Shown: one piece after another, positions 28,550 through 46,770 of the stretch | Layout: every line of letters begins with the position of its first letter | Numbering within the stretch: the stretch's first letter is position 1 | Assembly (NCBI GenBank): GCA_005239725.1 | Contig: SBBM01000058.1 | Coordinates: 1-48,258, forward strand | Direction: 5' to 3' | Source: Planctomycetales bacterium | GTDB taxonomy: Bacteria > Omnitrophota > Gorgyraeia > Gygaellales > Profunditerraquicolaceae | Length of the DNA: 48,258 bases | Notes under the pieces: model-generated | The model's input: the letters and a program-made list of their open reading frames with translations, nothing else | Told to the model about the DNA's origin: nothing | Databases searched by the model: none | Made by a program: the position numbers and the translations under genes

Positions 28550-28567
28550 TTGCCCTCCACTAATAAA

Positions 28568-28596
28568 ATGATACCATATTAGTATCATTTTGTCAA
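28568..28596 (-). promoter_or_regulatory. Rrf2 promoter with internal palindrome
   Basis: TTGACA (28591-28596), 17-base spacer, TATCAT (28568-28573). Between and over these lies a perfect 7-bp inverted repeat ATGATAC-N7-GTATCAT (28568-28588), well placed for autorepression by the Rrf2 protein. Promoter parts are visible; the binding is inferred. Confidence 0.7.
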
Positions 28597-28605
28597 GAAA
28601 AAAAT

Positions 28606-29787
28606 TTACGCTCCCAGGTCGGTAGGGGCGCGGCCGATGGATTGCAGCAACTGAAGTATTGAGTTGATTCTTTTTTCCGGCGGGGTATCTATGCCTGCCC
28701 TATCCGGATAAATCTCATAAAGGCGGCGGTATTTTTCCGGGGTAACATTTATCATCAGGGAATTTGCCCCTGCCATAAGCCCAAGCCTGAGCGCATTATC
28801 CTTATCCAGTGTTTCCAGGGCAGTAGTGACCAGAATCCTTGCCTGAGGAACGCTCATGCGCGCTTCGGCGATGGTATTTAGAACCGATTCCAACGCGGGT
28901 CTGGGATGAGCGGCTAAAGGCGTTTCGGGATGGGGAATAAATGGCCCGAAAGAAAACATCTCTGCGCCTAAAGAATGGGTCAATTTAATATCGTTCAACA
29001 CATCTTCTTTTGTTTGCCCGGGTAAACCGAGGATAAACCCGCTCATGATAATGTAGCCCTTTTGGCGCAAGCGCTTAATCAAATCAATGCGGCTTTCCAA
29101 AGAGTGGCCGGGCTTGACTTGTGAATATATTTTGGGATTACTGGTTTCAAAACGGAGAAGGGCGCTGCGCGCCCCGGCATCATAAAGCTTTTCATAAGTC
29201 GCAAACGGACGCTCCCCGATACTTAAGGTAATTAAACATGGGCTTTTTTCTCTTATCTTATTTACAATTTCAAGCAGCCGCTCCTCGCTATACCAGGCGT
29301 CCTCACCGGATTGAAAAACTAATGCCTTGAAATTAAGCTTATTTACCGCATAATCCGTGGCCGCCAATATCTCATTTATACTCATGCGGTAGCGGGTAAG
29401 TTTCTTATTATCCGGGCGTAAACCGCAATAAAGGCAGCTGCTGGTGCAATAATTGGAGAATTCGATTATCCCGTGGATGCAGCAGGAGTTCCCGTGGTAT
29501 TTCTGGCGCAGGGCATTGGCGGATTCATAAAGATCAGTAGGTTTTTTTGAGGCGAGCTTCTCGTCAATCTCCTGGAGTTTAAAAAATAACTCCTTCCAGG
29601 TTTCCAATATGGAAAGCGCCTCGGCTTCGGATACTTTCTGGACTACGAACCCGCCCTGGGCATAAATGTAGTCGCCCAGGGAAAGCGCAAAAAATTCATT
29701 CCGGGCTTTCCGCTTCTCTCCGAAGTAGTCAACGGTAATATTATTGTCTTTTATCTCCAGGATTTTACCCGGGATTGCGTAGCACAT
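28606..29787 (-). CDS. HypC-HydE fusion: [NiFe] chaperone joined to [FeFe] radical-SAM maturase
   Basis: A 393-residue protein. Residues 1-72 are a HypC/HupF chaperone: MCYAIPGKI with the essential Cys2, VDYFGEKRKA, LGDYIYAQGGFVVQKV; the usual His of the VHxGFA segment is Gln44. Residues from about 85 on are HydE: radical-SAM cluster Cys114/118/121 (NYCTSSCLYCGLR), RYRMSINEI, QSGEDAWY, LRFETSNP, GLPGQT, GPFIPHP. Total length equals one HypC plus one HydE. It is the last gene of the group 4 [NiFe] hydrogenase operon, directly after HydG with no gap. HypC carries Fe(CN)2CO for [NiFe] sites, HydE processes the HydG-made Fe(CO)2(CN) unit for [FeFe] sites. The fusion suggests transfer of a HydG/HydE product to a [NiFe] enzyme (inference). 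Confidence 0.92.
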   Translation of the reverse strand: MCYAIPGKILEIKDNNITVDYFGEKRKARNEFFALSLGDYIYAQGGFVVQKVSEAEALSILETWKELFFKLQEIDEKLASKKPTDLYESANALRQKYHGNSCCIHGIIEFSNYCTSSCLYCGLRPDNKKLTRYRMSINEILAATDYAVNKLNFKALVFQSGEDAWYSEERLLEIVNKIREKSPCLITLSIGERPFATYEKLYDAGARSALLRFETSNPKIYSQVKPGHSLESRIDLIKRLRQKGYIIMSGFILGLPGQTKEDVLNDIKLTHSLGAEMFSFGPFIPHPETPLAAHPRPALESVLNTIAEARMSVPQARILVTTALETLDKDNALRLGLMAGANSLMINVTPEKYRRLYEIYPDRAGIDTPPEKRINSILQLLQSIGRAPTDLGA

Positions 29788-31161
29788 TTAAAAATAAAGG
29801 TCTCTTTTGCCTTTTGCGATTTTGCGCAAACGCTCCTGCGTCTGGCGCTGCAATTCCTTGTCTTCTATTTTATCCAGATAAAAATTAATCAAATCGCCGT
29901 ATCTCCTGCGCGCGCCATTATGGACAAAATCCTCTATATATTCGGCAAAGGTGAGAATTCCGTTTGCACGGCAGAACTTATGTATCTCTCCGGGCTTAGA
30001 AAGCCCCATAAATGCTTCTCCGGTGCGGCCGCGGCGGTAACAGGCAGTACAAAAACTCGGCAGGAATCCATCTTCAACCACACCCTTGATAACCTCCCCG
30101 AGTTGCCTTTCGTCCTGGATATTAAATTGCGGCTGGCTGTCGCTTTTTCCGTAACCGCCGGTTGTGGGACAGGAAGCAGCCGAAGCCTGGGAAATACCAA
30201 TTCTAAATGCCTTCTTTCGCATTTCAGGCGTCTCGCGCGTGGAGATAATCATGCCGGTATAAGGCACAGCGATTCTTAAGACGGCAATAAGTTTTAGAAA
30301 ATCCTCATCGCTTACCAGGTATTTGGATTTTAAATCAACCGAAGGCGCCGGCTGCAGGCGCGGCACGGAAATGGTATGCGGCCCGACTTTATAAGTTTTG
30401 TCCAGATACTGCGCGTGGGCAATCACGGACAAAACCTCAAAACGCCAATCGTATAAGCCGAATAAGACACCCAGGCCAATATCGTCTAATCCTGCTTCAA
30501 GCGCCCGGGAAGGCGCGTTAATCTGCCTTATGTAATCCGCCTTAGGCCCGCTATGCAACTTTTCATAAGTCGGGCGGTGATAGGTTTCCTGGAATAACTG
30601 GTAAGTGCCTACATTTGCTTTCCTTAATTTAGAGTAATCCTCTTTCGTAGTTGCGGCGATGTTTACGTTTATCCTGCGGATATTCCCTTTATCAGTCTTT
30701 ACCGAGTAAATCTTCTTTATAGCCTTTACGACGTAATCAATATTATTTTTTAGGGGGTCTTCTCCGCATTCAACCAACACCCGCTTATGCCCCATATTTA
30801 TCAGGATTTTAACCTGCCCTTCTATTTCTTTTAAGGAAAGTTTCTTGCGTTTTAATTCCTTGTTTCTGGCGTGGAAATTACAGTAGGCGCAGTCATTAAC
30901 GCAATAATCCGAAAGGTAAAGAGGCGCAAAAAATACCAGCCTTTCCCCGTAAATCTCATTCTTTACCCATCCGGCAGTATTAAAGAGCTCCTGAATGAGG
31001 GCCGGTTCTTTAAGATTAACCAGGGCCCCTGCCTCTTTAATGCTCAGGCCTTTTTTATTTCTGGCCTTTTTTAGTATGCGCCGGATATCCCGCTTAGACG
31101 GATTTTTTGTCCCGGCTAAAGCTTCTTCTATCTTTTTCTCGTCAATCATCTGCCCTGCCAT
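29788..31161 (-). CDS. hydG: HydG, radical-SAM tyrosine lyase making the CO/CN-iron unit
   Basis: A 457-residue enzyme that cleaves tyrosine to CO and cyanide on iron. Radical-SAM Cys87/91/94 (YCVNDCAYC), the dangler-iron His262 (GPHTISVPRL) and the C-terminal auxiliary-cluster cysteines Cys371, Cys374 and Cys397 (CTACYRRGRTGEAFM; KFCRANGILTF) are all present, which separates it from ThiH-type tyrosine lyases. It overlaps the protease gene by 20 bases and abuts the HypC-HydE gene. No HydF or [FeFe] hydrogenase gene is in the window. An ATG four codons in, after GGCAGGG, is a possible alternative start. Confidence 0.93.
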   Translation of the reverse strand: MAGQMIDEKKIEEALAGTKNPSKRDIRRILKKARNKKGLSIKEAGALVNLKEPALIQELFNTAGWVKNEIYGERLVFFAPLYLSDYCVNDCAYCNFHARNKELKRKKLSLKEIEGQVKILINMGHKRVLVECGEDPLKNNIDYVVKAIKKIYSVKTDKGNIRRINVNIAATTKEDYSKLRKANVGTYQLFQETYHRPTYEKLHSGPKADYIRQINAPSRALEAGLDDIGLGVLFGLYDWRFEVLSVIAHAQYLDKTYKVGPHTISVPRLQPAPSVDLKSKYLVSDEDFLKLIAVLRIAVPYTGMIISTRETPEMRKKAFRIGISQASAASCPTTGGYGKSDSQPQFNIQDERQLGEVIKGVVEDGFLPSFCTACYRRGRTGEAFMGLSKPGEIHKFCRANGILTFAEYIEDFVHNGARRRYGDLINFYLDKIEDKELQRQTQERLRKIAKGKRDLYF

Positions 31162-31624
31162 AAATCTTATATTTTTCCAGAAACCATGCGCTTAATTCCG
31201 CAAGCGCCCTTTCCACTTCCGGGCTTAATTTTTCGCCCAGGCTAATATCTTTCGGCTGCACCGCCAATAGATACATTCTGGCAAAGGTATTTTCTTTCAG
31301 GAAACCCACCAGCATCTGCGGCGAGGGGTTATGCGTAAAAAACAAATTCCCCGTTTCTATCTTTTCTAAATCCCGGAGCCGGAGCTGGCCGGGCTGAGCG
31401 CCGGAATCAAGCGCATCTACAAACAGGATAGTATCGGGTTGTTCGCGGATAATCCTGCCCAGGAAGTTCTCCGGGGCATTTGCAACTTCTTCCACTGCAA
31501 GGGTAATTCTGTTCTTCAGCCTCTTGGCCAAAAGGCAACCAAAGGCATCGTCGCTGCGCAAAAGATTACCTACCCCCACAATAACTACCTTACCCTGCAG
31601 GGCCTGAGTTAATTTCTCTAACAT
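31142..31624 (-). CDS. [NiFe] hydrogenase maturation protease (HycI/HyaD family)
   Basis: A 160-residue endopeptidase that removes the C-terminal tail of a [NiFe] large subunit after Ni insertion. Visible: GVGNLLRSDDAFG (metal Asp), FVDALDSG (second Asp) and FTHNPSPQML (His). Being in the group 4 operon it should cut that large subunit after Arg360 (CTER). The ATG at 31624 is used; a TTG at 31645 would add seven residues. The start codon region overlaps nothing; the 3-prime end overlaps hydG. Confidence 0.88.
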   Translation of the reverse strand: MLEKLTQALQGKVVIVGVGNLLRSDDAFGCLLAKRLKNRITLAVEEVANAPENFLGRIIREQPDTILFVDALDSGAQPGQLRLRDLEKIETGNLFFTHNPSPQMLVGFLKENTFARMYLLAVQPKDISLGEKLSPEVERALAELSAWFLEKYKIYGRADD

Positions 31625-31648
31625 CAATCTGCGGCCTGTTTTCAATGC

Positions 31649-32257
31649 TCAAGACTTAAGGACTGCCTGCCTGCGGCATCTGGGACAGAGTATCTGGAAG
31701 CGGTCGCTACGCAGAACTGGGGGCATTTTCGAGGGTTGCGGAGCAATCTCAGCTAAAGACTTTTCTCCGAAGAAATACAGCATTAAAGAGGTATTCGCAA
31801 ATGCCAGCGGCCCTAATTTCCTGGCTACCCAATCTATCTGGTCCCGGGGAGCAATAATTTCCTGGCAACCGCCGCATAAAAACAGTTCTTTTTCTATTGA
31901 CTGCTGCAGGACATCCCTTTTTTCGGTAGTGGCTAAATCAAACTCATTGCTTAAAATAATCCCTTTTTCCGTGGGGCAATTAAGCTGGCACTGTCCGCAA
32001 CAGATACACATATCCAGCCTGATTTTTAAGGTGCGCTTAGGAGTAGCGCCCTCTGCTTTATCCTCAAAACTTAAGCATTTTGCCGGACAAACCTCCACGC
32101 AGGCAGCGCAGCCGATACAGTCTTTCTCGTAGAAATATGGCCTGCCCCGGAAAGCCTTCGCAGGGACATGCGGCTCATAGGGAAATTTTGCCGTGTAAGG
32201 GCCTTTGATGAGCGCTCTTATAGCTTCTTTTAATTCGCGCAGTTTAGGATACCTCAT
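31649..32257 (-). CDS. NuoI/MbhN/HycF-like 2[4Fe-4S] subunit with extra Cys pairs
   Basis: A 202-residue electron-entry subunit. Two ferredoxin clusters (Cys47/50/53 with Cys94; Cys84 or 86/87/90 with Cys57) carry electrons to the hydrogenase small subunit. A C-terminal part adds CGGC (128-131) and CPRC (191-194), a likely zinc or additional cluster site absent from NuoI. Overlaps mrpG by 4 bases. In Mbh-type complexes this subunit takes electrons from ferredoxin. Confidence 0.87.
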   Translation of the reverse strand: MRYPKLRELKEAIRALIKGPYTAKFPYEPHVPAKAFRGRPYFYEKDCIGCAACVEVCPAKCLSFEDKAEGATPKRTLKIRLDMCICCGQCQLNCPTEKGIILSNEFDLATTEKRDVLQQSIEKELFLCGGCQEIIAPRDQIDWVARKLGPLAFANTSLMLYFFGEKSLAEIAPQPSKMPPVLRSDRFQILCPRCRRQAVLKS

Positions 32258-32583
32258 TTTTTATCTTCCTCGTATTTATCGCAGACAGAGCCCTTGCAGA
32301 GCTTTACCCCCGATTTATGCGCCCCCCGGGCTAAGGCATGCGCGGCCACCGGAGAAGTCAAAAGTAAAAATATAATACAAAGGACCGCCTTAATGCCCGC
32401 GGGGCCAAAGCCTTTATACAAGATTAAGCCAAAAAGTATGCTGCAGGTGCCTAAAGTAACGCATTTTGTGGCTGCCTGCAGGCGGTTATAGACATCGGGC
32501 AGCCTGAGCAAGCCCAGGCAACCAAAGAAATCAAACCCTACGCCGATGACAATAAAAATAACCCCCAATGTCTCATTCATCAA
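32254..32583 (-). CDS. mrpG: Mrp antiporter subunit G / MbhC-like
   Basis: A 109-residue membrane protein with three helices (about 5-25, 38-60, 65-88) and the family signature FFGCLGLLRLPDVYNRLQAATK (split over 18-39). Part of the cation/proton antiporter module. Overlaps mrpF by 11 bases. A hydrophilic 20-residue C-terminal tail follows. Confidence 0.9.
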   Translation of the reverse strand: MMNETLGVIFIVIGVGFDFFGCLGLLRLPDVYNRLQAATKCVTLGTCSILFGLILYKGFGPAGIKAVLCIIFLLLTSPVAAHALARGAHKSGVKLCKGSVCDKYEEDKK

Positions 32584-32932
32584 AGCCTCTCCCCTCTAAA
32601 TACTTTGCCAAAGCCAGAGTAGAGATAAAACTCTGCAAGGCCCAGGCAATACCGATATCCAGATACCAGTCTCTGCCCGTGGGTATTTCTAAAACTGCGC
32701 AGAAACCTAAAATTAATATACCCAGGATATCTACCGCTACTGCCCTGTCCGCGGTGGTCGGGCCCCGCGCAATCCGCCACAGGCAAAACAAGGCGCAAAG
32801 GAAGAAAACCGTAAAACAGTGCTTCAGAAGCGGCGACTGCCACTCCATTAAAGAAGGAAGGGGATAAAAGAGAATTGCCCCTAAAACCGCAGTAATTGCC
32901 AATAACCCGATTAGCCAGCGTAGCCTTTTCAT
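32573..32932 (-). CDS. mrpF: Mrp antiporter subunit F / MbhB-like
   Basis: A 119-residue, three-helix membrane subunit with the conserved ARGPTTADRAVAVDILG segment (55-71). Works with subunits E and G in the antiporter. It has an additional N-terminal helix (about 7-28) compared with the usual 90-residue MrpF, so the start may be internal, but no better ribosome site is seen. Confidence 0.88.
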   Translation of the reverse strand: MKRLRWLIGLLAITAVLGAILFYPLPSLMEWQSPLLKHCFTVFFLCALFCLWRIARGPTTADRAVAVDILGILILGFCAVLEIPTGRDWYLDIGIAWALQSFISTLALAKYLEGRGFDE

Positions 32933-32938
32933 ATCTTC

Positions 32939-33433
32939 CTATTCAAATATGCGCGCTAAAATGCGCTCGAATTTTCCCGCAATAATTTCCGTTGCCTTCC
33001 GGATATCCTGGTCCTGCACATTAATCCAGTGAATATACAAAATACCCTCATCCTCATCTATATCCACGCTCATTGTCCCCGGCGTAAGGGTAATGGAATT
33101 TGCCAGAAAGGTCAGGGCCGTATCGGATTTGAGCTTCGTCTTTATCTTGATAATCCCCGGCTTAATCGGCAAATCCGGATGGATAACGCGGTAAGCCACA
33201 TCAATATTTGCCTTAATGCATTCCCAGATAAATAAAGGCGTATAATAAAGGAACCAGAGGTAACGGCTGGCTTGTTTAAAGGCGTGCGGCCTTTTTACAA
33301 ACATGTCGCCGGTAATAAAGGCCGCCAGCCCGCAGACAAAAATCCCCACTGCCAAATGCTGAGGGTCTACAGGCCAGGTTAATAACACCCAGACTAAAAA
33401 GGCCAGGCAAAATAAGATTATCCTGCTTTTCAT
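32939..33433 (-). CDS. mrpE: Mrp antiporter subunit E / MbhA-like
   Basis: A 164-residue protein with two or three N-terminal helices (about 5-42, 60-80) and a soluble C-terminal domain with NSITLTPGTMSVDID (about 112-126), the family hallmark. Sits 2 bases from the MrpD gene. Part of the ion-translocating module of the hydrogenase. Confidence 0.9.
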   Translation of the reverse strand: MKSRIILFCLAFLVWVLLTWPVDPQHLAVGIFVCGLAAFITGDMFVKRPHAFKQASRYLWFLYYTPLFIWECIKANIDVAYRVIHPDLPIKPGIIKIKTKLKSDTALTFLANSITLTPGTMSVDIDEDEGILYIHWINVQDQDIRKATEIIAGKFERILARIFE

Positions 33434-33434
33434 T

Positions 33435-34934
33435 TTATCTTATCGCACTAAAAACTCTTTCGGCGTAGCCGGTGCCTAACAATAAACAGTCGCTTGCGGA
33501 TTGAAGCAGCGACTTAAATAAAGGAGCGACGAGTAAACCGCTGGCTAAACAGGCTACGGCCAGAATGAGCATAGCTAAGCGCATTGCTAACGGGACTTCT
33601 TTTATTTTGGCCAAACCTTCGGGTAACTTACCCAGAAAGGCAAACCCGATGAATTTTAGATAATATGCCAGAGTCAAAATACTCACCAGAGCCGCTGCCA
33701 ACCCTAACCATAAATATCCGGCCTGGACCGCGGCCAGAATAATAATTAACTTGCTAAAAAATCCTCCTAAGGGGGGGAGCCCGGAAATCGCCAAAGACCC
33801 CACTATCCCCGTCGCTGCCGTAAAGGGCATCCCTTCTTTTAAACCGCCCAATTTTTTCAAGTCACGGCTTTCCGCAGAATACTCAATGGCGCCGGAATTC
33901 AAAAAGAGCAGGGATTTGAAAAAGGCGTGGTTAATGAGATGGAACAGGCCGCCAAAAATAGCTAAAGGGCTGCCTATCCCAAAAGCAAGAATAATGTAGC
34001 CTATCTGGCTCACGCTGGAATAAGCAAACATCCTTTTTATATCGCTCTGCCCTATTGCCAGAAATGCGCCCGCAACCATTGATACCGTGCCTAAGATAAG
34101 CAGGATAAAAAGCACCCCCTGCGAAACACCCAGGATATTAAAGAAGACCCGCGAGAGCGCGTAAACTCCCAGGACCTTGATAAATACTCCGGAGAGCATT
34201 GCCGAGATAGGCGCCGGCGCAGAAGGATGGGCATCCGGAAGCCAGGCATGGAATGGAACCAGGGCTGCCTTTAAGCCGAAGCCCGCCAGGAATAACACGG
34301 CCACAAAATTTAGCAGGAGCCCTGCGGGATGAGCGGCTAAAGTCCGACCGATATCCGCCATATTCAAAGTAGAAGTATAACTATATAAAAGGGCGATCCC
34401 CAAAAGGACAAAACTGGAAGCCAGCGAACCCATTACCGCATATTTAAAAGAGGCCTCTAATTCCTCCGCCTCAGTGCCAAAGGCAACCAGGGCATAAGAA
34501 GAAATGGAGGCAATCTCTAAGAAGACAAACAGATTGAATAAATCCCCGGTCACCATTATGCCGTTCATCCCTGCCAGCATCAGCATAAATAAGGTATAAA
34601 ATTTCCATTTATCCGTATACTTTTCCATATAGCTCAGGGAATAAAGAAGGACTAAGAAACTTACCGTATTCACCGTGCTCAACATAAGAGAACTAAGGTT
34701 GTCCACAGCCATGCAAATTCCTATCGGCGGAACCCACCCTCCCACTTTATAGACTAAGACGACCCCGGCCCGGGAGTTAAGAATCCAGAGGGTGAAAAAT
34801 GACAATGCCAGAAGCCCGAAACCCCCTGAAGTGGCAAGAAAATCCGCAAGGCGCCTGGATAGTTTTCCCACCAGAGAAATAAGAAAGGCTGCGCCTAAAG
34901 GGATAATCACAAAAAAGGGTATAAAATTATTCAT
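33435..34934 (-). CDS. mrpD: Mrp antiporter subunit D / MbhH-like proton-conducting subunit
   Basis: A 499-residue membrane protein with about 14 helices, of the NuoL/M/N-MrpD superfamily. The conserved helix-5 Glu (FVFLEIASISSYALVAFGTE, about 134-153) and Lys-bearing helix 7 region (FGLKAALVPFHAWLPDAHP, about 219-237) are present, as is the FGGLFHLINHAFFKSLLFL His-Lys helix. It is one of two such antiporter subunits in this operon. Confidence 0.92.
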   Translation of the reverse strand: MNNFIPFFVIIPLGAAFLISLVGKLSRRLADFLATSGGFGLLALSFFTLWILNSRAGVVLVYKVGGWVPPIGICMAVDNLSSLMLSTVNTVSFLVLLYSLSYMEKYTDKWKFYTLFMLMLAGMNGIMVTGDLFNLFVFLEIASISSYALVAFGTEAEELEASFKYAVMGSLASSFVLLGIALLYSYTSTLNMADIGRTLAAHPAGLLLNFVAVLFLAGFGLKAALVPFHAWLPDAHPSAPAPISAMLSGVFIKVLGVYALSRVFFNILGVSQGVLFILLILGTVSMVAGAFLAIGQSDIKRMFAYSSVSQIGYIILAFGIGSPLAIFGGLFHLINHAFFKSLLFLNSGAIEYSAESRDLKKLGGLKEGMPFTAATGIVGSLAISGLPPLGGFFSKLIIILAAVQAGYLWLGLAAALVSILTLAYYLKFIGFAFLGKLPEGLAKIKEVPLAMRLAMLILAVACLASGLLVAPLFKSLLQSASDCLLLGTGYAERVFSAIR

Positions 34935-34936
34935 CG

Positions 34937-35275
34937 CTATCCGTGCAACCTCTTAATCTTGGTGATATCAAAAGTCCCGTATTTCTCGTAAATCCTGAGG
35001 GCAATGGCTACGATTAAAGCCGTGACTGCCAGGCCGATAACTATCGCCGTGAGCACCAGGGCCTGCGGGATGGGGTCAACCATATTCTCTATTGCCTGAT
35101 TGGGGCTAAGTATGGGCGAACGGCCGGCCATTTTATAACCGACGAGGACAAAAAATAAATTCACCGCATATTCAATAATACCTAAGCCGATGACAATCTT
35201 GATGATATTTCTCTTACGCAGGGTGCAATAAAGCCCGATGGAGAATAAAACTAAGCACAAGAAATAAACGCTCAC
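34937..35275 (-). CDS. mrpC: Mrp antiporter subunit C / NuoK-like
   Basis: A 112-residue protein with three helices and the NuoK/MrpC signature IGLGIIEYAVNLFFVLVGY (29-47) containing the membrane-embedded Glu, and DPIPQALVLTAIVIG (67-81). Overlaps mrpB by 4 bases. Length is typical. Confidence 0.92.
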   Translation of the reverse strand: MSVYFLCLVLFSIGLYCTLRKRNIIKIVIGLGIIEYAVNLFFVLVGYKMAGRSPILSPNQAIENMVDPIPQALVLTAIVIGLAVTALIVAIALRIYEKYGTFDITKIKRLHG

Positions 35276-35718
35276 TTTTTCCTTCCCGTATTATTTAAAA
35301 TTAGCAGGGTAACAAAAATGCTAAACAGCCCTGCCCCTACCTTAAGGCAGATGGCGATATTGCACAAAGGGATAATCCCGGCGCTCAAAAGATGAAAAGG
35401 CATGCCCTTTTTGATGAAATTATAGAAAAAATACCCCCCGGAAAAACCCAATGCCGCGACGGATAAAAACATCAGCGCCCCTAAATTTTCTAAAAAAGCC
35501 GCCTTGGCCTGCGATAATTTCTTCAAGGCAGTTTCCTTGCCAAAGGCAATCATCAAGTGAATAAAAGCCAGGGCCATAATCACCCCCCCGGCAAAACCTC
35601 CGCCAGGGGTAAGGTGGCCGTGCAAGACGATATAAATGCCATAAAGAAAAATAAGCCCTACGGTAAGCCGGGTTATCGTCTTGACAATTATCGTCATCCC
35701 CTGCCTGGTCTCTTTCAC
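35272..35718 (-). CDS. mrpB: Mrp antiporter subunit B
   Basis: A 148-residue membrane subunit with four helices and the MnhB motif LHGHLTPGGGFAGGVIMAL (about 28-46). Overlaps the preceding and following genes by 4 bases each, as expected in a tightly packed complex operon. Confidence 0.92.
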   Translation of the reverse strand: MKETRQGMTIIVKTITRLTVGLIFLYGIYIVLHGHLTPGGGFAGGVIMALAFIHLMIAFGKETALKKLSQAKAAFLENLGALMFLSVAALGFSGGYFFYNFIKKGMPFHLLSAGIIPLCNIAICLKVGAGLFSIFVTLLILNNTGRKK

Positions 35719-36236
35719 TTTCTAATCCTTCCTACTTTGCGCATCACTGCCATTACGCCGATGACCGCGGTAAAAAGCACTGTGGCTTCCCCCAAGGTAT
35801 CGTAACCGCGGAAATCCAGGATTATTGCCGCCACTAAATTAGCCGCGCCGGTTTTGGCCAGGCCTTCTTTCAAATAAACCTCGGCTATGCGCATTATCGG
35901 CTTGCCGAATACCGGAAGGCTCTTCAGGGCAAAATAGGCAAAAAGCAAAAATACCGCCAGGAAAGAGAGAGTGGAAAGCGTGTTAAAAAACCACCTCCCA
36001 TCCTTGACTAACGGCAGGTCCTTATTGATGGTGGCGCGGATGAGAATAATCAAACACAATATCTCTACCACCAACTGGGTAATGGCCAGGTCCGGGGCTT
36101 TTAAGAGCAAGAATGACAGGGAAACCCCCAGGCCCACCGCGCCTACGGCAATCACGCTGGAAAGCAGGTCTTTTATTTCCACTGCCACAACTGCCGCCAC
36201 AATCATAAATAATAAAAGCAAGTGCAACTCTAGCAT
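35715..36236 (-). CDS. MrpA C-terminal / MbhD-MbhE-like subunit
   Basis: A 173-residue protein that joins a DUF4040/MbhD-like half (about 1-75; APDLAITQLVVEILCLIILI) to an MbhE-like half (about 80-173; LDFRGYDTLGEATVLFTAVIG). These correspond to the C-terminal part of MrpA, which in true Mrp is fused to the large antiporter domain; here that domain is the separate upstream protein. It links the antiporter to the hydrogenase module. Confidence 0.85.
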   Translation of the reverse strand: MLELHLLLLFMIVAAVVAVEIKDLLSSVIAVGAVGLGVSLSFLLLKAPDLAITQLVVEILCLIILIRATINKDLPLVKDGRWFFNTLSTLSFLAVFLLFAYFALKSLPVFGKPIMRIAEVYLKEGLAKTGAANLVAAIILDFRGYDTLGEATVLFTAVIGVMAVMRKVGRIRK

Positions 36237-36237
36237 T

Positions 36238-37914
36238 TTATTTTAGAAATAGGTAAAAAATCCCCATCATCCCCAGAAGGCACCAGACCAGGTAAGTCGG
36301 CAGCACCCCATTGTGCAAATAGCGCAAAAAATTAGTTACCCCAAAAATGAGGTCTTTGGCCTGATGATAAATATCAAAGGCGCCGGCCTCCGCCTTTCGG
36401 TAAATACCCCTGAGCACCCCCAATTCTTCTTTAACCGTGCGGTAAAATTCTGTGCCTGTCGGCCGGGCCTCTGCCGGGATATCTTCCGTGCCCACGTAAG
36501 GCTTATCCCTCCGGCTGAGCTGTTTAATGTTGCCGGAGCAGTAAATCAATAAGCCTGCCAGCATCCCGACGAAGAGCAAAATAGCGGCTAGGGCCGGTGC
36601 CCATAAGCCGAAGAATTCTATATTATTGCCTACTGCCGGCCCGATAAAATATTTCAAGGGCACCTGATAAGCAAATATGCCAAAGACAATACACAAAAGA
36701 GCCAGGACAAGCTGCGGGAACCACATCCATGCCGATACTTCTCTGACCTGCCTTTTGCTTAAAACTTCGCCCTGACCTAAAAATACTGCATGCAATAATT
36801 TTAAGAAAGAGGCCAGGGTCAGGGCGCTGCCGAATACCGCCGCTACCAGGCAAAGCAAATATACGGACATCTCCCATTTGCCGTTTGCCAATCGCCAATT
36901 GCCAATCAGACCCTGATAGACCATCCATTTAGAAATAAAACCGTTAAAAGGCGGAACCCCGGAAATGGATAAACTTGCTATCAGCGAGGATATATAGGTA
37001 AGCGGCATTAACCTGCTTAAGCCTCCCAGGGCATCCAGCTGGCTGGTTTTTGCGCGCTGCTCTACGCTGCCGGCAGTCAAAAATAAACAAGACTTATATA
37101 CGGCATTATTAAGCATATGGAAGATTCCGCCGGCAACACCCACAGGAATTCCCGTGCCTATCCCTAAAACCATATAACCTACCTGGGAAACAGCATGATA
37201 GCCTAATAGCCTCTTCATATTATGTTGAATTAAAGCCATCATTACCGCGGCCACGATGGTAAATGCGCCCGCCAGCATCAAAAACATATTCATCGTCCGG
37301 CTCATTACAAACATATCCAGAGAGACCCTCGCCAGCAAATAGATTCCCAGCAGTTTATCCAAAGAAGCCGGTAAGAATGCGGTTACCGGGAGAGGGGCAT
37401 TCTCGGCGCAATCGGGAATCCAGGTATGCAGCGGCATTGCCCCGGCCTTGGCAAAACAGGCCAGGGCTAAACAGAGGTAAGCCAGAACAGGCAGCAGAGA
37501 GGAAGCAGAGAGGGAAATTCTTATCTTATCCATCTCTAAAGTGCCGGTGAGACAATAAATAATAGCCGCGGCCAAAACCATCAGGGCATCTGCGCCGCCC
37601 ACAATAATCAAGGTTTTTTTCGCTGCCTCCCGCGCCTGAGGCCCGGCCAGGGCAATTAAAAGGTATAAGGTAATCCCTAAAAATCCCCAGGCTACCAATA
37701 GAAAAACTAAATTATTCGTCAGACAAACTGCCAGAGAAGCCAGGGACGTAAGTATAATATAGGTATAATACTGCCCTCGGCCGGGCTTGCCTCGCATAAA
37801 TCCTATAGAATATAGCAAGATAAGCACGGTAAAAAATATTACGCCTAATAAAACAAGACTGCTCAAGACATCTATTTTAAAAAGTCCGCTGTTAAATAAT
37901 ATCCGCTGTATCAT
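36238..37914 (-). CDS. NuoL/MrpA-N-like proton-conducting membrane subunit
   Basis: A 558-residue antiporter-like protein with about 14-16 helices. Conserved features: KAGAMPLHTWIPDCAENAP (about 162-180) and GGIFHMLNNAVYKSCLFL (about 262-279). A hydrophilic loop (about 455-520) precedes a final helix and recalls the lateral arm of NuoL in reduced form. It sits between the large hydrogenase subunit and the MbhDE-like protein and provides a second ion channel beside MrpD. Confidence 0.88.
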   Translation of the reverse strand: MIQRILFNSGLFKIDVLSSLVLLGVIFFTVLILLYSIGFMRGKPGRGQYYTYIILTSLASLAVCLTNNLVFLLVAWGFLGITLYLLIALAGPQAREAAKKTLIIVGGADALMVLAAAIIYCLTGTLEMDKIRISLSASSLLPVLAYLCLALACFAKAGAMPLHTWIPDCAENAPLPVTAFLPASLDKLLGIYLLARVSLDMFVMSRTMNMFLMLAGAFTIVAAVMMALIQHNMKRLLGYHAVSQVGYMVLGIGTGIPVGVAGGIFHMLNNAVYKSCLFLTAGSVEQRAKTSQLDALGGLSRLMPLTYISSLIASLSISGVPPFNGFISKWMVYQGLIGNWRLANGKWEMSVYLLCLVAAVFGSALTLASFLKLLHAVFLGQGEVLSKRQVREVSAWMWFPQLVLALLCIVFGIFAYQVPLKYFIGPAVGNNIEFFGLWAPALAAILLFVGMLAGLLIYCSGNIKQLSRRDKPYVGTEDIPAEARPTGTEFYRTVKEELGVLRGIYRKAEAGAFDIYHQAKDLIFGVTNFLRYLHNGVLPTYLVWCLLGMMGIFYLFLK

Positions 37915-39098
37915 CCTGACTTTTGCCCTTTAATTTCTTCTGTTTTCTTGCGGGAAAGCTCAACCAGATCCCAGCCGTTAAAAAGTTTACGCTCCGTCTG
38001 CCTATCTATGACTATGGTCCTTTCGGTGCAGCAATAACAGGGGTCTACGGCAGCCAAAGTAATGGCCGCATCAGAGATGGTCTGGCCTACTGCCGCCACT
38101 TTGTTGGAAGGCACGTTCATATAACTGGGCGCCCTGATTTTATGCCGGATGGGCGAATTTGTTCCGTCGGAACGCACATAGTGGAAGCACTCTCCGCGCG
38201 GGGCCTCTACGCGGCCTATGCCTTCGCCTGCAGGGATATCTTTTAGGTCCAGGTCTATCGGGCCTTTAGGCATCTTCTCCAGGCATTGGTTGATGATCTT
38301 GATAGACTCATACATCTCTAAAACTCTGACTACTAACTTGGCAAAGATATCTCCTTCCTTCCGCACAACCACATCCCACTCCACCCTATCGTAGACGCCG
38401 TAGGGGTCGTCTCTCCTGACGTCCATAGCCAGGCCTGATGCCCGCGCCGTCGGACCCACCACCGAATAATTAACCGCCTCTTCTTTGCTTAAAATGCCCA
38501 CTCCCTTTGTCCTGGCCTGGATTACCGGGTCATCCATTACCGCGCCCTTAAACATATTCAATACCGGGATAAGGTCATCGTTCATCTTTCTTACCCCGGG
38601 GATGTCTTCCTCTTTAATATCCCTCCTTACCCCGCCCACCTTCATCATCCCGTAGTTCTGCCTGTTTCCGGTAATCGCCTCTAAGATATCCAGCACCGGC
38701 TCGCGGTATTTCCAGGACCACATCCACACCGTATTATACCCGATAAAATGCCCGGCCAGGCCTAACCACAAAAGATGGCTGTGCAGGCGTTCCAGCTCCG
38801 CAATAATTGTGCGGATATAAAGGGCCCGCTCCGGGACCTCTATTTTTGCCAGGTCCTCCATCGCATTTACGTAGGCAAAAGGATGGGCGTTGGAACAAAT
38901 CCCGCAGATGCGCTCTACCAGATAAGGCGTCTGGTCATAGTGTTTGGATTCGGAAAGTTTCTCTATCCCCCGGTGCATATAGCCGATGACGATATCTATA
39001 TCCACCACTTTCTCCCCTTCGGTATATAGCCTGAAAAATTCCGGCTCTTCCTGCAAAGGGTGGTAAGGTCCTATGGGGATAACTACTTTATGGCTCAT
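37911..39098 (-). CDS. Group 4 [NiFe] hydrogenase large subunit
   Basis: A 395-residue catalytic subunit. All four nickel-iron cysteines are present: Cys65/Cys68 (RICGICSNAH) and Cys354/Cys357 (DPCYCCTER), so this is a real hydrogenase, not a Complex I NuoD. A 35-residue tail after Arg360 (TIVIDRQTER...) fits removal by a HycI-type protease, as for HycE. The ATG at 39098 follows GGAGAG; the in-frame ATG seven codons upstream has no such site. Overlaps both neighbours. The closest functional group is Mbh/Ech type by subunit company. Confidence 0.93.
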   Translation of the reverse strand: MSHKVVIPIGPYHPLQEEPEFFRLYTEGEKVVDIDIVIGYMHRGIEKLSESKHYDQTPYLVERICGICSNAHPFAYVNAMEDLAKIEVPERALYIRTIIAELERLHSHLLWLGLAGHFIGYNTVWMWSWKYREPVLDILEAITGNRQNYGMMKVGGVRRDIKEEDIPGVRKMNDDLIPVLNMFKGAVMDDPVIQARTKGVGILSKEEAVNYSVVGPTARASGLAMDVRRDDPYGVYDRVEWDVVVRKEGDIFAKLVVRVLEMYESIKIINQCLEKMPKGPIDLDLKDIPAGEGIGRVEAPRGECFHYVRSDGTNSPIRHKIRAPSYMNVPSNKVAAVGQTISDAAITLAAVDPCYCCTERTIVIDRQTERKLFNGWDLVELSRKKTEEIKGQKSG

Positions 39099-39540
39099 TT
39101 CTCTCCTTATCCTGGTCATGCCTTAAAGGATGGAAATCCTCCGGCAGGTCCTCTGCCAAGAGCAACCTCTTCAAATTAGGGTGATGGTCAAAATGAACGC
39201 CTAACATCTCCCACATCTCCCTTTCAATCCATTCCGCTGCCTTGATAAAGGGAGTAATGGATTCAATATGCGGGTCCTCTTTATCCCTAATCAGGGTCTT
39301 GAGCGTAAATATTTTCCCGCTGAGGTCATGGGAGAAATGATAAAGGATCTCTATGCCTCCGGGCGTATCCAGGCCAGAGGCAGTGGCTAACCTGCAGCTT
39401 AAATCCCGGAATATAAATTTAGCCGCTGCCGGGATATCCTGGGGCGCAAGTTCAATATAAAATCGCCGGGGGTTATGCTCTACGAAATTTAAAATTTGTT
39501 TGGCGAATTTTTCTTTAATGGTATTTTGCGGCTCGCTCAT
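39088..39540 (-). CDS. NuoC/EchD-like 30-kDa-type subunit
   Basis: A 150-residue soluble subunit with the Complex I 30-kDa family region IEREMWEMLGVHFDHHPNLK (105-124) and LLAEDLPEDFHPLR (126-139). It braces the large subunit. Overlaps the large-subunit start by 11 bases. Confidence 0.88.
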   Translation of the reverse strand: MSEPQNTIKEKFAKQILNFVEHNPRRFYIELAPQDIPAAAKFIFRDLSCRLATASGLDTPGGIEILYHFSHDLSGKIFTLKTLIRDKEDPHIESITPFIKAAEWIEREMWEMLGVHFDHHPNLKRLLLAEDLPEDFHPLRHDQDKERNEP

Positions 39541-39541
39541 T

Positions 39542-39961
39542 TTATTTCCCCAGTGATTTTAATAGCTTTACCACTCCCATAATAATTGCCTCGGGCTTTG
39601 GCGGACAACCCGGGACATAGGCAGCCACGGGGACAATCTCGTCTACCGGCTTGATATAATTGTAGGAGGGGGTAAACATGCACCCTCCGCCGGCGCACTG
39701 GCCTATGGCTACCACTAAACAAGGCTTAGCAGCCTGGGCATAGAGCGCCTTTAATCTTTCTGCGGTCTTGCGGTTAGGCACTCCGGTAACTAAAAGCACA
39801 TCCGCATGCCGCACGCTCCCCACCAGTTGGATTCCGAAACGCTCCACGTCATAACGCGGGGTAAGCACATCCAGTATCTCAATATCGCAGTTGTTGCAGG
39901 GAGAACAGGCCGCGTGAAATACCCAGATGGATTTAGTTAAAGCCTTAAGTTTAAGGTTCAT
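39542..39961 (-). CDS. Group 4 hydrogenase small subunit (NuoB/EchC-like)
   Basis: A 139-residue Fe-S protein that holds the proximal [4Fe-4S] cluster: CSPCNNCDIEI (19-29), GQCAGGGC (88-95) and VPGCPPKPE (115-123). The CxxC pair, in place of the Cys-Cys of NuoB, is the hydrogenase pattern. Overlaps the NuoH-like gene by one base. Confidence 0.92.
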   Translation of the reverse strand: MNLKLKALTKSIWVFHAACSPCNNCDIEILDVLTPRYDVERFGIQLVGSVRHADVLLVTGVPNRKTAERLKALYAQAAKPCLVVAIGQCAGGGCMFTPSYNYIKPVDEIVPVAAYVPGCPPKPEAIIMGVVKLLKSLGK

Positions 39962-40884
39962 TATTTGCCAAATAACGCCAATGTCACGGCTACGGCTGCC
40001 AATAAAGTAACCGGCCCCCAGAAGAATTTCATTGCCTGGTCAATACGCAAGCGGGGGTTGGTATTCCTGATTAAGACCGTCAAGAGCACAACGGCTAAAT
40101 ATTTCAAGATAAGCAAGAGGAACGCACCCGGGCCTGCCGCCACATTGCCCAGAAAAAGCCCAACCAGGAACAAGGGCGCTGCCACCAGCATCATAAATTT
40201 AGTCAGCCGGAAAACTGCCAATAGCGGCCCGGAAAACTCAATATACGCCCCGGCCATAATTTCCGTTTCTGCCTCCGCCATATCAAAAGGCACTAATCCC
40301 AATTTTGCCTGGCTGCAGAGCAATGCCACGATAAAGGCAATAGCGCCGGAAAAAGAGCCGATGCCCAAGCCGTTTACCGCCTGATAAAAAATCAACCCGC
40401 CTAATTTTATGGACTGGGCCTTGATTAAAACTACGAGGGCCGCTAAGATAAAGGGGAGCTCATAACTTAAGAGTAATTTTATCTCCCGCGATGCGCCTTG
40501 AGAAGCCAGGGGGTTTGCCGAGGCAAAACTGGCCACAATCAGGCTGATTGCCGGCAGGCCCATCAGGTATATTACCACAAATACATCTCCCACAAAACCC
40601 TTTTCCGGAAAAAGAAAAGCCAGCCAGATAATACTGGAAGCCAGAGCGCTGGCTGCCAGCCCGACTATAGGAAATACCAGGAACGTCCATAAAGAAGAAT
40701 TTGCCGGCAGTATCAGTTCTTTGCCTAAAAGCTTGATTAGGTCATACAAAGGCTGTAGAAGCGGGGGGCCTTTGCGCCACTGCACCCGCGCCGTAATTTT
40801 ACGGTCAAACCAGGAGGCGAATATCCCCAGGGCGCCTGTAAATAAAAACCCCGGAAAGATTAAATAATAAAATAGGTCTTTCAT
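39961..40884 (-). CDS. NuoH/EchB-like membrane anchor subunit
   Basis: A 307-residue protein with about eight helices and family motifs RKITARVQWRKGPPLLQPLYD (about 28-48) and LVPFDMAEAETEIMAGAYIE (about 193-212), including the acidic residues of the quinone/ion pathway. It attaches the hydrogenase arm to the antiporter arm. Confidence 0.92.
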   Translation of the reverse strand: MKDLFYYLIFPGFLFTGALGIFASWFDRKITARVQWRKGPPLLQPLYDLIKLLGKELILPANSSLWTFLVFPIVGLAASALASSIIWLAFLFPEKGFVGDVFVVIYLMGLPAISLIVASFASANPLASQGASREIKLLLSYELPFILAALVVLIKAQSIKLGGLIFYQAVNGLGIGSFSGAIAFIVALLCSQAKLGLVPFDMAEAETEIMAGAYIEFSGPLLAVFRLTKFMMLVAAPLFLVGLFLGNVAAGPGAFLLLILKYLAVVLLTVLIRNTNPRLRIDQAMKFFWGPVTLLAAVAVTLALFGK

Positions 40885-43774: not shown

Positions 43775-43826
43775 TTCGACTAAGGCTTAAAGTGTCTAAT
43801 GGTGAGCTTAGTCGAACCATTAGACA
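43767..43826. repeat. Interlocking inverted repeats between hydA and the protease gene
   Basis: Three pairings share this segment: TTAGACAC (43767-43774) with GTGTCTAA (43792-43799); TTCGACTAAG (43775-43784) with CTTAGTCGAA (43807-43816); and an 11-bp TGTCTAATGGT (43793-43803) with ACCATTAGACA (43816-43826). The pairings exclude one another in part, so alternative hairpins can form. The units TTCGACTAAGCTCA recall an interspersed repeat known from other bacteria. It overlaps the hydA stop and the protease GTG start. Confidence 0.65.
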
Positions 43827-45175
43827 AATTTTACGTCCAAAAGGTGCGTTGAACAGGATATGCAGGGGTCATAAGACCTGGCCAGCATCTCAAGGTCAAG
43901 GGTTATCTCCTCTTGCGTCCTCCTGCCCAGGAGCTCAGGGACAATCTTACGCATGTCATCCTCAAGATTGCCCATGTTCTGGTTCGTGGGGATTACGCAG
44001 TTTGCGTAAACTATATGGCCGGTATCATCTATAGTGTATTCATGGAATAACGAACCCCTGGGGACTTCAACGCACCCTATGCCTGTATTGGGTTTATATT
44101 TTATTTTGCCGATTTCACTCCTCTTCGGCCAGGATGCCACGACTATCTTTTCTCTGCTTAATCCGTCTTTGAGAATCTTTTCCATTAGGGCAATGGATTC
44201 CTCAAGACAATGCACCCATTCCACCATCTGGGCAAGAGTATTCAGGTAAGGGTTATGGCATGGCGCCTTAAGCCCTAATTCCTTTGCCACGCTTTTGGCC
44301 TTTTTGTTCAGTTTATCGCCATTGTTATTAAACCTGGACAAGGCACCCACGGCATAGGATTTCCCGCCGATAGTAGCTATTTTTGCCCGGGAATAATCCA
44401 CTATGGTTTCGCTGAATACCTCTTTATATTTCTTGTCGGAAACCCTGTCCTTTCCATCAACTACCAAATCTCCGTCGTACATCGCGTATTCTCCGTCATT
44501 GGTAAGCGACATATACCGGGTAGGCCTCTGGAATTCCGGGAATTTAAAGGTCCTTAATATCTTAACCGTCTCATCCCCGTCAGCGCGGGCGTCACACATC
44601 ATTTTGTATAATTTTTCCAAACCCTCTCTTGAAGGAAGCTGGGTAAAACCGCCGATTACGCAAGTTATAGGGTGGATGTGCCTGCCAGCAAGCACTTCTC
44701 CGCCGTAATCGCTCATCTTTTTCATTCTTAAAGCCATCTCGATAACCGGCCTGTGCGTCTTGATTAAAGGCATAACGCTCGGGACACCTAAAAGGTCAGG
44801 CGCAACCAGGAAATAAATATGCAGTATATGGCTATCCAGTATCTCTGTATATAAAAGGAGTTTCCTGAGCATTATTGTTTCATCCGCAGGCTTTATTCCC
44901 AGGGCATCTTCTCCGGCCTTGATGCTGGCTAAACTGTGTCCGCAGGCGCATATGCCGCAGATGCGGCTGGTCAAATGCTGCGCCTCCCAGATAGACCTCC
45001 CGACGAGCATGGACTCAAAAAAACGGGGGGATTCGATTACCTGGAATTCGCACTTGGTGAGCCTCCCACCCTTAACATCCACGACGATATTGCCGTGGCC
45101 TTCGACGCGGGTCAAATAACGCACATCAACTTTAACGTTCCTGGAATTTATTTTATCTGGCGAATTCTTGGTCAT
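43820..45175 (-). CDS. hydA: Group 3b [NiFe] hydrogenase alpha (large) subunit
   Basis: A 451-residue catalytic subunit of the cytosolic NAD(P)-linked (sulf)hydrogenase. Ni-Fe cysteines Cys73/Cys76 (RICGICACGH) and Cys438/Cys441 (DPCISCSTH) are present. A 7-residue tail (LLDVKFV) follows His444 and is the protease substrate. The ATG at 45175 is chosen because GGGAGAG lies 7 bases before it; the in-frame ATG seven codons upstream has none. Overlaps the delta-subunit gene by 23 bases. Confidence 0.93.
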   Translation of the reverse strand: MTKNSPDKINSRNVKVDVRYLTRVEGHGNIVVDVKGGRLTKCEFQVIESPRFFESMLVGRSIWEAQHLTSRICGICACGHSLASIKAGEDALGIKPADETIMLRKLLLYTEILDSHILHIYFLVAPDLLGVPSVMPLIKTHRPVIEMALRMKKMSDYGGEVLAGRHIHPITCVIGGFTQLPSREGLEKLYKMMCDARADGDETVKILRTFKFPEFQRPTRYMSLTNDGEYAMYDGDLVVDGKDRVSDKKYKEVFSETIVDYSRAKIATIGGKSYAVGALSRFNNNGDKLNKKAKSVAKELGLKAPCHNPYLNTLAQMVEWVHCLEESIALMEKILKDGLSREKIVVASWPKRSEIGKIKYKPNTGIGCVEVPRGSLFHEYTIDDTGHIVYANCVIPTNQNMGNLEDDMRKIVPELLGRRTQEEITLDLEMLARSYDPCISCSTHLLDVKFV

Positions 45176-45920
45176 ATTTCTCTCCCTGGGGGTCATTATA
45201 AAGAGTGAAATGGTTTAATATATCCTCCACTTTTAAGCCGTATTTTTCCAGTATCTCTTTTGCGCCGTCTGCGGCGGGATTTTCAAGCAGGCCCCGGCAG
45301 GCATAGCACCTGTTCCCGTTATTAATGCACCAGGAGTTACATCCTGCCCGGGTTAGCGGACCCATACACTCCTGGTCCTTTTCATAGCGGCAGACATTTT
45401 CATTCATCTTGCATTCCACGCACACCGGGTAATTGGGAAGCGGATAAGGTTTGCCCATAAGGATACTCTTAAAGACAGCGATTATTTCCGGGATATACGG
45501 GGGGCAGTTAAGGATATAATAATCAACCTTGACTACCCTGTCCAGAGGCATCACCTTAATGGTATTTATGGTGTGCGCCTTGTCTGCATAAACCCTCTCC
45601 TTGGCAACTTCCAGGGAGGTGCGGTTTTTAATGCCGTTTACCCCGGCGATAGCGGCACAGGAGCCAAAGGCAACCAGGATCTTCGCCTTGGCCCTTATCT
45701 CTTTTATGCGCTTCACATCGTTATCCGTGGAGATACTCCCTTCGACAACCGCGATATCGTAATCCTCCCCCTTTTCCGACATTATCTCGCGGAAGTTCAC
45801 TATATCAATCAACTCCGTCAACTCAAGAAAGGTATTGCCCATGTTGGCAAGCTGAAGCTGGCACCCTTCGCAATCGGTAAAGTCAAAAAAGGCTACCTTT
45901 GGTTTAGGCTGCTTTTTCAT
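45153..45920 (-). CDS. hydD: Group 3b hydrogenase delta (small) subunit
   Basis: A 255-residue Fe-S subunit. Proximal-cluster ligands begin at DCEGCQLQ (Cys17, Cys20) with GSCAA and LNCPPYIPE; further clusters are served by CVECKMNENVC, CMGPLTRAGC and CYACRG. It transfers electrons between the alpha subunit and the beta-gamma module. Overlaps the gamma-subunit gene by 17 bases. Confidence 0.92.
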   Translation of the reverse strand: MKKQPKPKVAFFDFTDCEGCQLQLANMGNTFLELTELIDIVNFREIMSEKGEDYDIAVVEGSISTDNDVKRIKEIRAKAKILVAFGSCAAIAGVNGIKNRTSLEVAKERVYADKAHTINTIKVMPLDRVVKVDYYILNCPPYIPEIIAVFKSILMGKPYPLPNYPVCVECKMNENVCRYEKDQECMGPLTRAGCNSWCINNGNRCYACRGLLENPAADGAKEILEKYGLKVEDILNHFTLYNDPQGEKYDQEFAR

Positions 45921-46770
45921 GACACTCTCCTTTAAAGTCTTTCAACTGGGCATAATTAAAAACCGGCCCGCTCTGGCAGACATATTTGCCTTCAATCTGA
46001 CAGTGCCCGCATTTGCCCAGGCCGCACTTCATCCTTCTCTCCAGGGAAACAATAATCTGATGGTCGGGGATAATCTTGTTAAGGAGTTCCCCGATTACGA
46101 ATTTATACATTATCGGAGGCCCCACTACTACGGCGTAAGTCCTCATGGGATTAATATCCACTCCCGGGATTAAAGTAGTGATAAGCCCGACATTGCCTTG
46201 CCAGTCGGGGTCTGCCTTATCCACGGTGCAATTAAACTTAACCTCTGCCCTTCTCTTCCATTCCTTTACCTCTTCCCGGAAAAGCAGGTCTTTCGGGCTC
46301 TTGCAGCCGAGAAGCAGCTGGACATTCCCGAAATCATTCCGGTTATGCATAATATATCTCATCAATGAACGTAAAGGCACGATACCTAATCCCCCGGCGA
46401 CAATAACCAAATCGTAACCAAACATGTTGTCAATGGGAAACCCTTTGCCAAAAGGGCCGCGTATCCCCAGGGTATCGCCTTCTCCCAATTGGTGCAACCG
46501 GGAAGTAAGCGTGCCGACGTTGCGCACAGTCAGGTCAAAATACCCTTTGTCTGTCGGCGAAGAACAAATAGATATCGGGGCTTCGCCGTATCCGAATATG
46601 GAAACCATGACAAACTGCCCGGGCTCATGCGCCAGGTTGACTTTATCCTCCAGCTCAATGCGGAAAAACTTCTCTTTCTCGGTAAGCATCTCGGCTTTGA
46701 TTATCCTGCCCTTCATCGGCTTGTAGGGAGAAGTCTTCACCTTTTCTAAAAGTATCTCTCGGTCAATCAT
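45904..46770 (-). CDS. hydG: Group 3b hydrogenase gamma subunit (FAD/NAD(P)-binding)
   Basis: A 288-residue diaphorase subunit: FAD part (about 20-115; APISICSSP), NAD(P) part AGGLGIVPLRSLM (about 131-143), and [2Fe-2S] loop CGLGKCGHC ... KYVCQSGPVF near the C-terminus. Not to be confused with the radical-SAM HydG elsewhere in the window, which shares only the name. Overlaps hydB by 4 bases. Confidence 0.91.
   Translation of the reverse strand: MIDREILLEKVKTSPYKPMKGRIIKAEMLTEKEKFFRIELEDKVNLAHEPGQFVMVSIFGYGEAPISICSSPTDKGYFDLTVRNVGTLTSRLHQLGEGDTLGIRGPFGKGFPIDNMFGYDLVIVAGGLGIVPLRSLMRYIMHNRNDFGNVQLLLGCKSPKDLLFREEVKEWKRRAEVKFNCTVDKADPDWQGNVGLITTLIPGVDINPMRTYAVVVGPPIMYKFVIGELLNKIIPDHQIIVSLERRMKCGLGKCGHCQIEGKYVCQSGPVFNYAQLKDFKGECHEKAA

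Follow-up and report, generated by a model that had tools for sequence, protein, structure and literature searches.

A HypC-HydE fusion encoded beside HydG and [NiFe] hydrogenases suggests a third route of hydrogenase maturation without HypD, HypE and HypF

The locus

The window (the whole stretch of DNA that was analysed, 48,258 nucleotides of a contig from an Omnitrophota genome) carries at 28606..29787, on the minus strand, an open reading frame of 393 codons that starts with ATG, runs in a single unbroken frame, and encodes a protein of 393 amino acids identified as a HypC-HydE fusion by profile matches, PDB matches and an AlphaFold2 model. The HypC domain occupies residues 1-64 (29596..29787, minus strand), which align to the HypC structures 2z1c and 3vyr and match the Pfam family HupF_HypC (PF01455) at 51.6 bits against a cut-off of 28.5; four further fusions (L024, L065, L108 and L195) also pass this cut-off. 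The stricter NCBIfam HypC model, TIGR00074, is narrowly missed (46.4 bits for a curated cut-off of 48). The radical-SAM domain of the HydE type covers residues 72-385 (28633..29574, minus strand), with Pfam Radical_SAM at residues 108-269 and BATS at 283-385; residues 82-388 find Thermotoga maritima HydE in the PDB, with which the domain has residues in common. Its score with the NCBIfam HydE model TIGR03956 is 253.1 bits, that is, 1.5 below the curated cut-off of 254.6, and the domain is thus HydE-like, the equivalog line being missed. The CX3CX2C motif of the radical-SAM [4Fe-4S] cluster (Cys114, Cys118 and Cys121; 29425..29448, minus strand) was read from the sequence and is conserved in all the fusions compared. 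The AlphaFold2 model, computed from 24 sequences, covers the whole two-domain chain with a pLDDT of 93.2 and a pTM of 0.92, and the structures closest to it are those of T. maritima HydE (PDB 7o1o, 8qmk and 3ciw; Foldseek target-normalised TM-scores of 0.82-0.88).

An earlier note, made from the sequence alone, had read this frame (without giving its strand) as a HypC domain at residues 1-72 followed by a full HydE, and this reading held, the profiles only setting the domain limits more closely. The note had named two results that would refute it, a failure of the first 72 residues to match a HypC profile and a stop codon or frameshift between the domains. Neither was obtained, given the match to PF01455, the unbroken frame, and the existence of 81 distinct fusions of the same layout in independent assemblies, which rules out a frameshift or assembly artefact. 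The fusion is thus genuine.

Upstream of the fusion, on the same strand, lie HydG, a HycI-type protease, a group 4 hydrogenase, and then a group 3 hydrogenase with a HypA-like gene. HydG, which as a tyrosine lyase produces CO and CN- (29788..31161, minus strand), scores 529 bits with TIGR03955 (cut-off 312) and retains both the CX3CX2C motif and the C-terminal CX2CX22C motif (residues 371-397), as required of a HydG. The [NiFe]-hydrogenase maturation protease of the HycI type (31142..31645, minus strand) matches TIGR00072 at 98.3 bits, as well as PF01750. The group 4 hydrogenase is Mbh-like and looks complete: its large subunit (37911..39119, minus strand; PF00374 and PF00346) has the ligand motifs RICGIC and DPCYCC and the APRG and APS of the CN pocket, and the other membrane hydrogenase subunits (31649..40884, minus strand) comprise a ferredoxin subunit (NCBIfam), Mrp/NuoL/NuoN antiporter-like proteins, NuoC, a small subunit and NuoH (read from sequence). 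The group 3 soluble [NiFe] hydrogenase (43820..47849, minus strand; PF00374 at 119.5 bits) consists of large, small, FNR-like and Fe-S subunits, and has its own protease at 43301-43774. Both large subunits possess the four cysteine ligands, the arginine and serine or threonine of the CN pocket, and a C-terminal extension past the last cysteine motif, and so qualify as [NiFe] clients.

The HypA-like nickel metallochaperone (47914..48114, minus strand; PF01155 over the cut-off at 31.4-33.8 bits) corresponds only to the N-terminal half of HypA. Such short proteins, of about 67-85 amino acids (another lies at 9756-9995 of locus L097), match the nickel-binding half and end before the zinc-finger part; their genes adjoin the fusion in many loci. 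Just downstream of the fusion, we read from the sequence a regulator resembling Rrf2, with a cluster of cysteines (28139-28588, minus strand), and a hemerythrin-like protein (27705-28124, minus strand), and, farther downstream, a flavodiiron-like protein (24135-25337, minus strand). These three genes might point to some control by O2 or Fe-S, but this is inferred from sequence only.

A widespread family

The search for proteins with both domains, and for the hydrogenase genes that accompany them, which the earlier note had proposed, reveals a widespread family that occurs with [NiFe] hydrogenases and HydG in the absence of HypD, HypE and HypF. The fusion is present in 60 of the 384 genomes of the phylum, in two length classes of about 393 and about 432 amino acids, the longer one having an extra insertion of about 40 residues between the two domains (assignment to the fusion class relied on inspection of the N-terminus for fetched loci, and on score and frame length for the remainder). 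Among named genome contigs, 203 relatives were recovered overall, including at least 80 fusion loci. According to the titles given by the submitters of the MAGs, the bacterial fusion loci belong to Omnitrophota, Elusimicrobia, Saganbacteria/WOR-1, WOR-3, Firestonebacteria, Lentisphaerae, Scalindua/Brocadiaceae, Brevinematales and other Spirochaetes, a Bdellovibrio bin and Patescibacteria bins, and the archaeal ones to the DPANN groups Micrarchaeota, Woesearchaeota, Nanoarchaeota and Aenigmatarchaeota. A maximum-likelihood tree places all fusions apart from stand-alone HydE, across a branch supported at 100/100, and the nearest named relatives of the window fusion are Omnitrophota.

The gene order is also conserved. 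HydG is found within 10 kb of the fusion in 59 of the 80 named loci, typically adjoining it, and a [NiFe] large subunit is near the fusion in about half of them (group 3 in 29, group 4 in 10), mostly upstream; in many of the loci without a detected large subunit, the contig is short or the hydrogenase has diverged beyond the reach of the marker set used. A maturation protease, often accompanied by a HypA-like gene, sits just before the fusion. When these named loci were searched for further conserved partners of the fusion, two genes came up repeatedly, one HypA-like and the other for a Rex-type regulator; the remaining neighbour clusters were discarded, as they correspond to known hydrogenase/antiporter genes, to a widespread histidine-kinase-like domain, or to frames overlying known genes. 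The Rex-type redox-sensing repressor was seen near the fusion in L055, L063, L069, L071, L074-L076, L087, L091, L096, L099, L106 and L107.

Each maturation factor was searched for in 68 genomes, 57 with the fusion and 11 controls. HypD, HypE and HypF over their cut-offs were each found in none of the 57 fusion genomes, 56 of which have a [NiFe] large subunit and 55 a HydG. The [FeFe] hydrogenase HydA is present in 10 of the 57 (it is missing from 47, the window genome among them) and HydF over its cut-off in eight; in the window genome neither HydA nor HydF was found, the best match to HydF scoring 103 bits, against a cut-off of 325.6, and covering no more than profile positions 8-168. The exceptions are two genomes without a HydG match, G029 (96% complete, with no HydG in the 20 kb around its fusion) and G286 (86%), and one, G390, without a [NiFe] large subunit. 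The controls follow the textbook expectation: six that have a stand-alone HydE but not the fusion possess HydA and HydF, without [NiFe] hydrogenase or HypD/E/F; HypD/E/F occur in three that lack HydE, and a [NiFe] large subunit was detected in two of these (G102 and G108); G136 has the two sets in full and G089 neither. HypB does not discriminate between pathways, being missing from most of the 68 genomes whatever the pathway, including three with HypD/E/F; it is conceivable that nickel insertion in these genomes does not need the usual GTPase.

All these genomes are MAGs, so that single absences are weak evidence, and the case rests on the overall pattern. At the level of the whole phylum, 138 of the 384 genomes have HypD and 60 have the fusion, and none has both (Fisher p = 1.6e-13, phylogeny-naive); likewise, HypD occurs in 107 genera and the fusion in 43, with none shared. 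Nine families contain both HypD genomes and fusion genomes, in separate genera, which indicates that this exclusion spans repeated switches and is not the accident of one clade. In addition, HypD is lacking in all 20 genomes reached via the named-genome loci, and Ca. Scalindua (L098/G398) has the fusion and HydG without HypD/E/F or HydA.

A few fusion genomes contain HypE-like proteins scoring 87-120 bits. We rejected them as HypE, all scores being low and the strongest ones examined lacking the C-terminal PRIC cysteine of control HypE; those at L120-L123, from Scalindua, WOR-3 and some Omnitrophota, are probably other members of the superfamily. HypF matches in G394 and G396 (125-128 bits) are under the cut-off and cover the C-terminal half only.

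Conserved residues

In the HypC domain, Cys2 (MCYAIPG), Tyr3 and Gln44 are invariant in the 81 fusions compared. Cys2 corresponds to the iron-carrying residue of HypC, although iron binding in the fusions is only inferred. Gln44 aligns with the histidine of VHTGF in 2z1c, the HypC residue that contacts HypD (H51 in E. coli, H44 in T. kodakarensis; PMC9002611); its replacement in 81/81 fusions would be in keeping with a HypC domain that has given up contact with HypD, as far as can be inferred from residue conservation.

In the HydE domain, the CX3CX2C motif and the residues E161, T268, T269, M291, Y303 and Y306 (T. maritima numbering) are kept as in stand-alone HydE. What is specific to the fusions is a Cys102-Cys103-Ile-His105 motif (29473..29484, minus strand) on the first barrel strand (strand 101-111 of the AlphaFold2 model), in the place of Val51, His52 and Arg54 of T. 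maritima HydE. The two cysteines and the histidine are present in 81/81 fusions, and none of the nine stand-alone HydE compared has a histidine at the position of Arg54. To judge from residue conservation, the active site is otherwise intact.

HydG and its clients

We found no residue signature that would divide, at the thresholds used, the HydG of fusion systems from that of [FeFe] systems. Two types of HydG C-terminus exist (for examples, see the window, L024 and L177), CTACYR...C (CX2CX22C) and CTAGYRC...C, in which the second cysteine is shifted, and both occur with either class of hydrogenase. Moreover, eight of the ten genomes having both the fusion and an [FeFe] hydrogenase contain a single detected HydG (G094, G338, G099, G050, G385, G394, G396 and G399). 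The absence of a separating position, together with the single HydG of these dual genomes, suggests that the HydG product is probably a shared intermediate, one HydG feeding two pathways that diverge at HydE.

The large subunits served by the two types of pathway are also alike. Both kinds retain the cysteine ligand motifs together with the PRG arginine and the APS/IPT residue, and the group 4 large subunit encoded by the control genome G108, which has HypD/E/F, shares 75% identity with that of the window. In solved [NiFe] structures, the PRG arginine and the APS/IPT residue hold the cyanides. With the same ligand and CN-pocket motifs on both sides, the same NiFe(CN)2CO site is the simplest expectation.

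A proposed third maturation route

We think that these data most probably reflect a third route of hydrogenase maturation, in which, without HypD, HypE and HypF, HydG and the HypC-HydE fusion assemble the iron unit and supply it to [NiFe] hydrogenases. The genomic case for such a pathway is strong, but there is no biochemistry for any member of the family: the analysis shows that the fusion exists, which genes surround it, how widely it is distributed, that HypD/E/F are absent while [NiFe] hydrogenases and HydG are present, and which residues are conserved. That the fusion builds or delivers Fe(CN)2CO, in which direction the iron moves, and that CO and CN both derive from tyrosine are inferences.

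In the [FeFe] pathway, the Fe(Cys)(CO)2(CN) made by HydG passes directly to HydE; this enzyme reduces the synthon by radical adenosylation and has been proposed to build [Fe2(SH)2(CO)4(CN)2] (PMC12752695). In the Hyp pathway, the HypCD complex holds Fe(CN)2CO between Cys2 of HypC and Cys41 of HypD, whose thiols C69 and C72 have been proposed to act in cyanide transfer (PMC12134894). In the route proposed here, HydG would cleave tyrosine to CO and CN- and build the iron-CO-CN-cysteine synthon, and the HydE domain of the fusion would take up this synthon through its known radical-SAM chemistry. Rather than forming a di-iron product for HydF, the domain would then transfer a mononuclear Fe-CO-CN unit, with its ligands adjusted to Fe(CN)2CO, to Cys2 of the tethered HypC, which would load it into the apo large subunit; the short HypA-like protein would help in the addition of nickel, and the HycI-type protease would close the site. 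The main argument against this scheme is one of stoichiometry: HydG gives CO and CN in a 1:1 ratio, and the product known for it is Fe(CO)2(CN), whereas [NiFe] sites need Fe(CN)2CO (CO:CN 1:2), and HydE is not known to have any ligand-exchange activity. One may speculate that the second CN for one CO comes from a redistribution of ligands between two synthons, and that the invariant Cys102-Cys103 pair acts as thiol or redox partners, by comparison with the role proposed for C69 and C72 of HypD.

The earlier note had already suggested that an iron-CO-CN species derived from HydG and HydE is passed to HypC and on to a [NiFe] hydrogenase; gene neighbourhood, co-occurrence and residue conservation now support this idea, the transfer itself remaining an inference. 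Its view of the fusion as a source of CO for [NiFe] maturation has to be corrected. Since HypD/E/F are absent as well, in every fusion genome tested, cyanide must also come from elsewhere, and there is more here than CO added to the Hyp pathway; docking of the fusion to HypD, which the note also suggested, is for the same reason not a relevant test. As for its hope that the origin of CO in anaerobic [NiFe] maturation might be explained in this way, the answer is at best partial, and limited, if the route is real, to the lineages that carry the system: among 14 control genomes HydG was found only in T. maritima, and the route does not apply to ordinary anaerobes such as E. coli, which have no HydG.

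By its defining features, the system falls into neither known pathway, yet it is assembled from parts of both. It resembles the HypABCDEF pathway in its HypC-type Cys2 carrier, HypA-like nickel protein, HycI-type C-terminal protease and client large subunits, but has neither the HypD scaffold nor HypE and HypF (which obtain cyanide from carbamoyl phosphate), and its HypC is joined to HydE, with glutamine for the HypD-contact histidine. With the HydE/HydF/HydG pathway of the [FeFe] H-cluster it shares a HydG with both cluster motifs and the radical-SAM core and pocket residues of HydE; it differs in mostly lacking HydF and HydA, in its [NiFe] client, and in a HydE that bears a HypC domain and the CC-x-H motif. 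T. maritima HydE, for which synthon-bound structures exist, is about 37% identical to the fusion, without a HypC domain and with Val51/His52/Arg54 where the fusion has Cys102/Cys103/His105. Finally, HypX, the formyl-THF decarbonylase that supplies CO for [NiFe] sites under O2, is likewise an alternative source of ligand for the same cofactor, but gives CO only and works with HypC/D/E/F.

Alternative explanations

One could argue that the fusion is an ordinary [FeFe] maturase with an accidental HypC domain, as its HydE domain keeps the conserved residues and HydG is encoded next to it. We consider this hypothesis largely refuted, and very unlikely, because HydA and HydF were not found in the window genome, 47 of the 57 fusion genomes have no HydA, the fusion sits in [NiFe] operons on a 100/100 branch apart from stand-alone HydE, and Omnitrophota dual genomes hold a separate stand-alone HydE as well (G094, G125, G338, G099 and G050). 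Even less room is left for the idea that HypD/E/F are missing merely through incomplete or badly binned MAGs. The window genome is indeed only 80% complete, but HypD is found in 0/60 fusion genomes, against 138 of the 324 other genomes of the phylum, many of the genomes being more than 90% complete, and again in 0/20 from the named loci; this possibility can be all but excluded.

The two other alternatives concern the chemistry. HydG and the fusion might provide only CO (or one ligand), with an unrecognised analogue of HypD/E/F, encoded elsewhere, giving the cyanide or the scaffold. This would solve the problem of the CO:CN ratio, and the HypE-like proteins of a few fusion genomes (87-120 bits) and the HypF-C-like carbamoyltransferase of two (125-128 bits) could be invoked in its favour. 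We nevertheless regard it as unlikely, since those HypE-like proteins examined have no PRIC cysteine and are found in few genomes, and beside the fusion only the HypA-like gene and the Rex-type regulator recur. The large subunits might, on the other hand, receive Fe(CO)2(CN) straight from the HydG synthon, without any exchange of ligands. No new ligand chemistry would then be needed, Fe(CO)2(CN) being the known product of HydG (PMC12752695), and one HydG does seem to serve both pathways in dual genomes. If true, [NiFe] active sites with another set of diatomic ligands, two CO and one CN, would exist in nature. This hypothesis seems very improbable to us, given that the PRG and APS/IPT motifs of the CN pocket are unchanged and that a 75% identical large subunit is found together with HypD/E/F in a sister genome. 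We prefer a route in which HydG and the fusion deliver Fe(CN)2CO.

Implications

In the open-licence literature searched (subscription papers and preprints were outside the scope), we found no HypC-HydE fusion, no link between HydG/HydE and [NiFe] maturation, and no [NiFe] maturation free of HypD/E/F; searching by lineage brought up none either. A review of 2025 still regards six Hyp proteins as necessary under anaerobic conditions and the origin of CO as the most pressing question (PMC12134894). If the route is confirmed, it will represent a second independent solution for building the same [NiFe] sites, without HypD/E/F and from tyrosine-derived CO and CN, and will join two pathways thought to be separate; the question of the CO source would become testable by isotope labelling. 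The presence of hydE and hydG in a genome does not imply an [FeFe] hydrogenase, a point that bears on metagenomic annotation. In practice, hydG, hypC-hydE, the hypA-like gene and the protease would offer a compact gene set for heterologous production of [NiFe] hydrogenases. One genome (G079; L024 1129-3873) even encodes HypC, HydE and HydG as a single protein of 915 amino acids, and this triple fusion is a ready construct for studying channelling from HydG to HydE to HypC.
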